DNA from: Prevotella amnii DSM 23384 = JCM 14753
GTDB lineage: Bacteria > Bacteroidota > Bacteroidia > Bacteroidales > Bacteroidaceae
DNA length: 64,000 nt
Direction of reading: 5' to 3'
Assembly: GCF_000378745.1 (NCBI RefSeq)
Contig: NZ_KB905266.1
Location: 1 to 64,000, forward strand
Numbering within the stretch: position 1 is the first letter of the stretch; the number at the start of each line of letters is the position of its first letter. The position numbers and the translations under genes were made by a program. This document shows, piece by piece, positions 1 to 2,053 of this stretch. Below the pieces are notes generated by a model, which saw nothing but the letters and a program-made list of their open reading frames with translations, did not search any database and had not been told where the DNA came from.

Positions 1-33
1 GAACCGCAAGCGGTTCATTTCTGGGTTTTTCTT
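1..33 (+). terminator. Probable terminator hairpin cut by the window edge
   Basis: GAACCGC and GCGGTTC form a 7-bp stem around a 2-nt loop at positions 1-16. The following bases, ATTTCTGGGTTTTTCTT, contain a short T run, and the stem may continue to the left of the window. It could end a plus-strand transcript from outside the window or be a structure inside a mobile element. Confidence 0.35.
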
Positions 34-261
34 GGCATTAGCAGAATCTCTAAGTATGAAAAAGCAGGAGCCGCGTTGATAGCAACTCCTGCCCATACTT
101 GTCAATCTGCGCAGTTCTATTCCTTATGAAGTTGCTCCCCAGCAGAGCTTCACTACGCTTCAAACTGCAAACCAAAGGTACAATATGTAAGCTGCTTCAA
201 CGAAGAAACATCGGAAAAAATCATCCTGCAATTTGAGCTATAGGATACATACTTCTCAAAA
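34..261. other. Structured non-coding segment, possible end of a mobile element
   Basis: No open reading frame could be supported here. GCAGGAG (65-71) can pair with CTCCTGC (88-94), with an inner GTTG/CAAC stem. On the minus strand TACCTTTG (173-180) matches the Bacteroidota -7 box and would drive transcription leftward out of the window. The base composition looks richer in GC than the neighbouring genes. Because the adjacent gene is cut off at a repeat on its edge, an insertion sequence with its leader and transposase to the left is a plausible reading. No known family was recognised. Confidence 0.35.
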
Positions 262-283
262 TCATCCTGCAAAATGAGCTATA
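217..283. repeat. Two 26-bp direct repeats at the end of a truncated gene
   Basis: Copies at 217-242 and 258-283 match at 24 of 26 bases; the centre reads CTGCAATTTGAGC in one and CTGCAAAATGAGC in the other. Their period is 41 bp. The second copy supplies the last codons and the stop of the ATP-grasp gene to its right. Paired, slightly different motifs like this are typical of transposase-binding ends, but that role is inferred. Confidence 0.5.
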
Positions 284-1038
284 CGCCTAATATTATCATT
301 ATATATATGCCCCCAACCTTTTGAACAAACTATACCTGTTTTTAAATCTACCTCGTAAGCACAACCACCATTGTGACTATTATCAACAATGCTTTCTCCT
401 ATGCCTATACGCAAAGTAGCCTTAAAAATATGAGCTTTTTTACTATTTTTCCCACAAGCTGTATAAATACGTATTGTATTAACAGACTTATTATTAAATA
501 TCATCTCCTCTTTCTGCACTATTTTCTGTTCAAAAAGTAGATCTTTATCTTGATATTCACTATAAAGTTGTTTTACCTTATTATGATTTTCTATTTTTAA
601 AACTCTTACCCCAATACCTTCCCAGTTATCTAATGGTTTTATTATAACTTCCTGTTTGCCTCGCATAAAGTTATTGAAAGTTTCATAATTAGCTTCTTTA
701 ATACTTATCCAATCACGTTTAATAAAATCTTTAAAATATTTATTAAATTCTACTTTATTCTGTAATATTTTTACGTCATCACTATTATTATAGTGTTTAA
801 TAATACCACACCAACGCTTATAGGTTAAGATATCCTTCCTTTCAAAATATTTACGTTTATAAAAACAGCCATCTATAAACTGATTAAGTACACAGCCATA
901 TCTAATAAAACTCCAAATACAATCTAATATAGTATAAGTAGAATTAAGATGTTTATCTTTTGAAAAATCATTAAGAACCCGTATGTACTTTTTTAAACCT
1001 TTGTAATAACTTTCAAAAATATATTTCATCATCTTCAC
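262..1038 (-). CDS. ATP-grasp sugar-transfer-type protein, C-terminally truncated
   Basis: This 258-residue protein resembles its upstream neighbour along its length and matches the ATP-grasp family associated with sugar transfer in capsule and exopolysaccharide loci. Visible blocks are EVIIKPLDNWEGIGV near residues 130-145 (ATP-grasp core), SVNTIRI, and NGGCAYEVDLKTG near the end. It lacks about 70-75 C-terminal residues, including the ExN metal-binding segment, so it is probably inactive. The last codons (IAHFAG and stop) come from the 26-bp repeat, which suggests truncation by an insertion rather than a natural end. Its start lies 9 bp after the restored stop of the upstream gene, so the pair form one operon. 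The family is clear, but the exact substrate is not known. Confidence 0.7.
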   Translation of the reverse strand: MKMMKYIFESYYKGLKKYIRVLNDFSKDKHLNSTYTILDCIWSFIRYGCVLNQFIDGCFYKRKYFERKDILTYKRWCGIIKHYNNSDDVKILQNKVEFNKYFKDFIKRDWISIKEANYETFNNFMRGKQEVIIKPLDNWEGIGVRVLKIENHNKVKQLYSEYQDKDLLFEQKIVQKEEMIFNNKSVNTIRIYTACGKNSKKAHIFKATLRIGIGESIVDNSHNGGCAYEVDLKTGIVCSKGWGHIYNDNIRRIAHFAG

Positions 1039-1047
1039 TCTTGAAAA

Positions 1048-2038
1048 TTAATACATATAAGGTTTTATCTTTTCCCAATAACGATACGTGCCTTTAAACT
1101 CTAAAAATTCATATTCGGGGTTATGATTGCCCTCTATTAATTCTACTCCCCCCCCCATAGAGAACAGCTACATCCCAACCAATAAGACCGCATGTAGGCA
1201 ACTTTTCTTGAGCATGATTACACACTTTTACCACTTCTTCCCAATGGGGTATCTTAAAGCCAAGCATACAAGTATTTGTTTTTGGGTGAAAAATAGCATT
1301 ATTATTAACCTTTGAAAGTGCTGAAGAGATAATACGTCCTGTAGATAAATCCACTTCATAAACACACCCTCCTTGTGCATAATTATCTATATCAGTATGT
1401 CCAACACCTGCTCTAAACAAAGCTTTCACTATATGCGACTTTTTTGTCTTCTTATCTAATAACGTTTCCACCCGTAATGTATTAACACTCGTACTGCCAA
1501 GGCTAAGCATAGGCTCCTGTAGAACACATTCCTCTATCATATATTTGCTTGTTTTAAGCTTATTATAAATATTTTTTGCCCCTTCTTCTCCTAATTTTTC
1601 AAAATATATTTTATAAACACCTTCTCCTTCACAGGTGTTATAAGGTTTTACTATTAGCTCCTTTTTATCCTTAAATAAACATAAGAAATCTTCATATGAC
1701 ATTTCTGGAGAATAAAGCCACTTACGATGTACATACTCAGAAAAAAAACTATTAAACTCATGCTTGTTTTCCAAAATATGTATACTCTCCTTTTTATTAA
1801 AATAATTCAGAGCTTTGAGATAACGCCTATACGTTAAAATTCGTCTCCGTTCAAATTCACGCCGCTTATAAAAATTCCCTATTACATAATGTCTTATTAA
1901 GCACCCATGTCTTATTAAGCACCACGCATAATCTATAAAAAGACTACATATAGAAAGTTTTTCTTCTTTATGTAGTTGCCAAAGCATCTTAAAACATTTT
2001 TTAATATACCTTACATAAACAGAACATTTTACTTTCAT
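1048..2038 (-). pseudogene. ATP-grasp sugar-transfer-type protein, frameshifted at a G9 tract
   Basis: The open frame covers 1121-2038 (305 residues) and ends with an out-of-family tail after GWDVAVLYGGG. The run of nine C at 1148-1156 (nine G on the coding strand) shifts the frame. With eight or eleven G the reading continues as VELIEGNHNPEYEF and stops at 1048, giving about 329 residues and restoring the conserved ATP-grasp C-terminus with its ExN metal ligands. The core KPYNTCEGEGVYK and the SVNTLRVET block are intact. The family acts in surface polysaccharide loci. A TTTG-N21-TATCTTTG promoter lies 37 bp upstream. The defect may be a reversible phase-variation state, a fixed mutation or a sequencing error. 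Confidence 0.75.
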
Positions 2039-2053
2039 TTTACTTTCATTTTA
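2030..2053 (-). repeat. 11-bp tandem duplication over the start codon
   Basis: The coding strand carries ATGAAAGTAAA twice in tandem, followed by ATG-like sequence. The outer ATG (2049) reads only MKVK and stops at TGA, overlapping the inner ATG (2038) that starts the ATP-grasp frame. This makes a 4-codon mini-ORF that could couple or modulate translation. Confidence 0.5.

Follow-up and report, generated by a model that had tools for sequence, protein, structure and literature searches.

The window analysed in this study covers 64 kb at the start of contig C2 in the Prevotella amnii genome (2.39 Mb in 77 contigs), and it has a G+C content of 33.9%. At its start, on the minus strand, lie two genes of the ATPgrasp_ST (sugar-transfer associated ATP-grasp) type, the first of which carries a homopolymer tract of nine G on the coding strand (1148..1156, minus strand), a presumed slippage site. 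In its current reading, based on ORF and Pfam analysis, gene 1 (1121..2038, minus strand) is a frame of 305 amino acids which terminates shortly past this tract with the C-terminal residues GGGSRINRGQS. Its profile score places it within PF14397 (E 1.1e-38, 133.5 bits vs a curated cut-off of 31.4). The match stops at profile position 245 of 278, the intact orthologue of Hoylesella buccalis reaching position 262, and the complete C-terminus with the conserved EGN motif is missing from the frame, its end being found in another one. Translation and homologue alignment identify positions 1048..1146 (minus strand) as the final 32 codons and stop of gene 1 in that different frame, open and conserved; read in their own frame they give VELIEGNHNPEYEFLEFKGTYRYWEKIKPYMY followed by the stop, in agreement with the C-terminus of homologues. 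In the homologue alignment the tract corresponds to a variable turn between WDVA and ELIEGN. The lost segment contains an E-x-N motif whose E and N we take to be ATP-grasp metal ligands. The original prediction that the nine G sit exactly where the protein departs from its family is upheld by both the Pfam match and the alignment, and its frame arithmetic, in which one G fewer or two more would lead to the normal end at 1048, is correct.

A promoter-type tract was considered for gene 1 and rejected, as the tract is coding. At the start codon of gene 1, an 11-bp unit (ACTTTCATTTT, plus strand) occurs twice in tandem (window positions 2031-2052). Structure prediction for the H. buccalis orthologue gave a poor model (mean pLDDT 52.3), which was set aside, the search by sequence for solved relatives gave a single match that is not credible (E 0.51), and the search of viral contigs with the gene 1 tract and its flanks gave 0 matches.

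The operon and its insertion sequence

Gene 1, gene 2 (both of the ATPgrasp_ST type) and an aldo/keto reductase occur in this order in genomes G146 and G308. Gene 1 is called a glycan gene here because of the content of its locus in H. buccalis, where a sugar transferase, a decarboxylase, further ATP-grasps and a reductase are found. In P. amnii, gene 2 (288..1029, minus strand; ORF, Pfam and contig comparison) is interrupted by an insertion sequence, and its C-terminal piece is on contig C33. Sequence matches place the end of the insertion sequence within 1..287, at the very start of contig C2. Sequence comparison shows an 8-bp target duplication, TAATATTA, at 288..295 and again at the start of contig C33, flanking both junctions. 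At the start of contig C33 lies the opposite end of such an element; next come the C-terminal ATP-grasp piece (44% identity to gene 1 residues 234-292) and the reductase, so that C2 and C33 would be adjacent in the genome. A full copy of the insertion sequence with like ends is present on contig C9 with AAAATTTT on either side, and its 318-aa protein matched no family in Pfam. The same ends, as exact matches, are found near the ends of contigs C2, C3, C11, C12, C15, C27, C33, C35, C36, C38, and C41, where, as far as these matches indicate, one element family probably breaks the assembly. The operon thus bears two lesions, the insertion sequence in gene 2 as well as the frame break in gene 1. 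Tract length by itself is therefore unlikely to control the pathway, which is probably off in the sequenced isolate whatever the number of G. This interruption of gene 2 weakens the case for phase variation.

Conservation past the frame break

Gene 1 was compared piecewise with the intact orthologue of H. buccalis ATCC 35310 (L037, 75% identity). The portion before the tract shares 223 of 292 residues with this orthologue and differs from it at 59 first, 33 second, and 153 third codon positions. For the portion past the tract, read in the other frame, identity is 27 of 32 residues, with 5, 2, and 20 differences at the three codon positions. Judged by these differences, the end of gene 1 is constrained at least as strongly as its body, which indicates that the break is recent or reversible and not the result of old decay. 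The openness of the other frame alone means little, since the chance of 32 codons staying open is ~0.11. Gene 1 has one break only, with neither the further lesions nor the relaxed constraint past the break that a decayed pseudogene would have; tract length sets its frame, and the remainder of the gene appears to be under selection. A departure from the family right at the tract, combined with constraint on the other frame, favours phase variation.

The two closest orthologues, those of H. buccalis and Prevotella corporis DSM 18810 (L038), were searched for the tract, and it is absent from both. The P. corporis frame is broken by a one-base gap situated 33 alignment columns upstream of the tract site and away from any long run, and its C-terminal end is conserved (31/32). 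Two closest orthologues without the tract, one of them broken elsewhere, again weaken the case for phase variation. Its principal rival is a recent one-way loss of function in which the G run would be a passive mutation hotspot and the frameshift and insertion sequence would mark the onset of decay of an unneeded operon. The P. corporis break away from long runs fits such a loss, as do the insertion sequence with its 8-bp duplication in gene 2 and three frame breaks, counted by eye, in a second ATP-grasp gene on contig C11. However, constraint on gene 1 does not slacken beyond the break, and the same gene families are repeatedly tract-bearing, at varied positions and in both registers, as described below. 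We therefore regard one-way loss as unlikely, though it deserves to be kept in view.

Long G/C tracts in the P. amnii genome

G/C runs in the window number 418 of length 3, 85 of length 4, 11 of length 5, none of lengths 6-8, and one of length 9. With the genome expectation taken as the extrapolated decay of these window counts by length, nine tracts of at least 9 were observed in the genome vs ~0.3 extrapolated, and 15 separate tracts of at least 8 vs 1.9 extrapolated. The G9 of gene 1 is accordingly a slippage-prone homopolymer within coding sequence beyond what chance would provide, and the excess of tracts of at least 9 favours phase variation. The GGG codon accounts for 95 of the 967 glycine codons in 26 window genes. 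With regard to the genus, P. amnii is unexceptional: G9 is present in 133 of 150 genomes, P. amnii included.

Six of the 15 tracts of at least 8 belong to surface-modification genes, either inside them or at their 5' end, and are found in both open and closed registers, which also favours phase variation. Besides gene 1 on C2, whose register is closed, they concern the second ATP-grasp on C11, with the tract in the gene and a closed register; a GT2 gene at C2:107070 with an in-frame G9 and an open register; two Acyl_transf_3 genes on C4, the first with a tract at its 5' end and closed, the second tract-bearing and open; and a sulfatase-fold gene on C1 with a tract at its 5' end, closed as judged by eye. 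The C11 gene has two further frame breaks, seen by eye at T5 runs; it looks like a pseudogene and counts against phase variation. There are four PF01757 genes in the P. amnii genome, two of them tract-bearing. When homologues of the GT2 gene were searched at E<=1e-70 in 396 genomes, the only match was P. amnii itself, and the tract of the C1 sulfatase-fold gene is not shared, with one tract of at least 8 among 28 comparison loci (123,970 bp). Two more tracts lie upstream of genes. A G14 tract (C3:51933-51946; L014:6934-6947) precedes a TACCTTTG promoter-like element and a fimbrillin-like gene (PF13149), and a G8 tract on C5 (L021:4647-4654), followed by TATCTTTG, is upstream of a beta-lactamase-fold gene (PF13354). 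The remaining seven of the 15 tracts are intergenic or of uncertain position.

We also noted a tract at C13:6290-6299 that has identical flanks in three genomes, and is G10 in P. amnii and G9 in the two others (L093 and L100, near position 2001). The surrounding sequence is a G+C-rich, hairpin-like repeat that separates two genes on the same strand.

An assembly or sequencing error, by which the G run would have another true length and gene 1 would be intact, has in its favour that homopolymers are error-prone with some sequencing methods and that the two further breaks of the C11 ATP-grasp, seen by eye, are at T5 runs. On the other hand, the 46 other ORFs of the window, which contain one A9, seven A8, and one T8, are without split neighbours by eye, and conserved frames break at tracts in other genomes too. 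A general homopolymer error in the assembly is unlikely, and we give an error at the gene 1 tract itself very little weight.

Tracts in homologous genes and in other genomes

Homologues of the C4 acyltransferase (L133-L156) were collected at E<=1e-60, giving 24 from 396 genomes of the genus, P. amnii included, and a G/C tract of at least 8 was counted when inside the gene or at most 90 nt before it. Such a tract is present in 12 of the 24 homologues. These genes hold 12 tracts in 26,867 bp, and the sequence flanking them four in 67,960 bp (Fisher P 1.5e-4, Poisson P 1.2e-7), counts and P values from which shared descent among the homologues is not removed. The tracts are at the 5' end in five genes, near reference residue 210 in four, and at three other places, and the coding strand carries either G or C. 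Scored with ATG starts alone (GTG and TTG left out), seven of the 12 tract-bearing genes read through from ATG and five do not; L153 was scored as closed because the sole ATG in that frame is internal. The frame change coincides with the tract in L153 and L154, while L135 and L140 have an open frame at roughly this position. That half of the homologues are tract-bearing, in frame and out of frame, and that two of them change frame at the tract favours phase variation.

In the ATP-grasp family itself, beside the two closest orthologues, which have no tract, gene 1 of the same operon in G308 has its own G9 starting at L043:2222, in frame and in a different loop; this protein is 41% identical to that of H. 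buccalis. The in-frame tract of G308 favours phase variation. Conversely, G308 is the only one of 19 other ATPgrasp_ST loci with a tract of at least 8 in the ATP-grasp gene, which weakens it. At locus L029, a tract of at least 8 is found in a neighbouring capsule-type gene (PF09587), in open frame. Taken together, relatives with open and with closed registers are found for both the ATP-grasp and the acyltransferase families. Recoding, in which transcription or translation slippage at the tract would yield some full-length protein from unchanged DNA, is hardly credible: homopolymers of at least 8 are reported, in the accessible part of one source, as programmed transcriptional realignment sites (PMC3711429), but such recoding goes with one conserved slippery site in the family, while here the two closest orthologues are without the tract, that of G308 is at another position, and homologue tracts vary in position (5' ends included), in coding-strand base (G or C), and in register.

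In tracts chosen irrespective of gene family, 40 of at least 9, being all those listed for 13 other genomes of the genus picked mostly for few contigs, were assigned to genes. Three of the 40 are in PF01757 genes, two of them open (L091 and L108) and one split at the tract (L107), vs 0.08 expected (P 8e-5), the expectation resting on 78 PF01757 matches in the 13 genomes, fragments included, with 1 kb assumed for each. This enrichment also favours phase variation. One of the 40 is a G10 located mid-gene and in frame in a type I restriction specificity (HsdS) gene (L123:1472-2530, genome G075). Further surveyed tracts are in genes for RnfC, a pseudouridine synthase, an AraC-type regulator, a D-Ala-D-Ala carboxypeptidase, a short-chain dehydrogenase, and a TOTE helicase. 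The presence of tracts in ordinary genes such as RnfC means that not all tracts are switches, and it weakens to some extent the argument for gene 1.

Tracts upstream of promoter-like elements

The G14 tract before the C3 fimbrillin-like gene has counterparts elsewhere: the pattern of G9 followed after 14-30 bases by TAnnTTTG was found in 57 of 398 genomes of the genus, vs 11 matches in nine genomes for the reversed pattern, which is an imperfect control as the reversed element may differ in frequency. Among 71 distinct strings of this kind, the distance is 18-26 in 52, and TAA directly follows the tract in 34. Genes downstream of 12 promoter-type loci, named by eye save for the P. amnii fimbrillin, include fimbrillin-like, DUF3575-like, lipoprotein, and SusC/TonB-type genes. 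At locus L056 no ORF was found downstream, and the tracts with this pattern at L057 and L059 fall inside open frames.

Discussion

We propose that slippage phase variation best explains the G9 of gene 1, with a probability of about two in three, and that its present state is closed. Gene 1 would be the first of two ATP-grasp ligases in a small glycan-type operon with gene 2 and an aldo/keto reductase, and its G9 would act as a simple-sequence contingency site. Replication slippage would add or remove G in the tract, and two of the three registers would cut off the final ~30 residues of the protein while one would read through, the sequenced isolate being in a closed register. The family, the position of the break at the tract, the conservation of the frame beyond it, and the glycan-type setting are as predicted of a phase-variable gene; we infer that tract length varies in populations, that the truncated protein would be inactive, and that a surface phenotype would follow.

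Beyond this locus, the evidence from the genus leans, by a modest degree, towards a genus-wide second layer of phase variation in this Prevotella-type genus, beside invertible promoters. In its coding form, G/C homopolymers would have arisen repeatedly in glycan acyltransferases, ATP-grasp ligases, and an HsdS gene; in its promoter form, a G tract would precede a TAnnTTTG -7-like element, mostly by 18-26 bases, before genes that include those of fimbrillin-like, DUF3575-like, and SusC/TonB-type surface proteins. If slippage does switch surface glycans in Bacteroidales, many seemingly broken genes in Prevotella assemblies would be switches, and tract lengths would have to be scored in work on strains, phages, and immune recognition.

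Homopolymer slippage itself is a mechanism of an already known kind. Our literature search, with most subscription papers outside its coverage, did not turn up any account of phase variation by homopolymers in Prevotella. In the accessible parts of the reports cited here, Bacteroidales phase variation is described mostly via DNA inversion (PMC11868660), and for Prevotella intermedia the events described are inversion of hsdS and deletions that shift the frame, rather than G tracts (PMC5608340). The invertible promoters of Bacteroides capsules likewise bring about reversible switching of Bacteroidales surface glycans; however, they act by recombinase DNA inversion, whereas we propose tract slippage (PMC11868660). 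The polyG/polyC contingency loci of Campylobacter jejuni, as presented in the accessible portion of that work, resemble the present ones in having intragenic G/C tracts of at least 7, in-frame and out-of-frame states, and many loci per genome; length changes were measured in C. jejuni, whereas here there is one genome per species and variation is deduced (PMC4965091). The Gardnerella homopolymeric tracts are similarly long (at least 8) and located both upstream of and inside genes, and their description, in the part available, includes evidence of variation, in a phylum and in genes that differ from those of P. amnii (PMC11287997). The nearest Bacteroidales precedent that we found, according to the available part of the report, is the polysaccharide-locus acetyltransferase of Bacteroides fragilis 638R, in which an extra homopolymer base causes a frameshift and for which the authors propose slippage (PMC3090145). 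It shares with our case the order of bacteria, a glycan acetyltransferase-related gene, and a homopolymer frameshift, but it concerns a run of only 4 C at one locus, detected by comparison of strains, compared with the tracts of 8-11 described here (PMC3090145).
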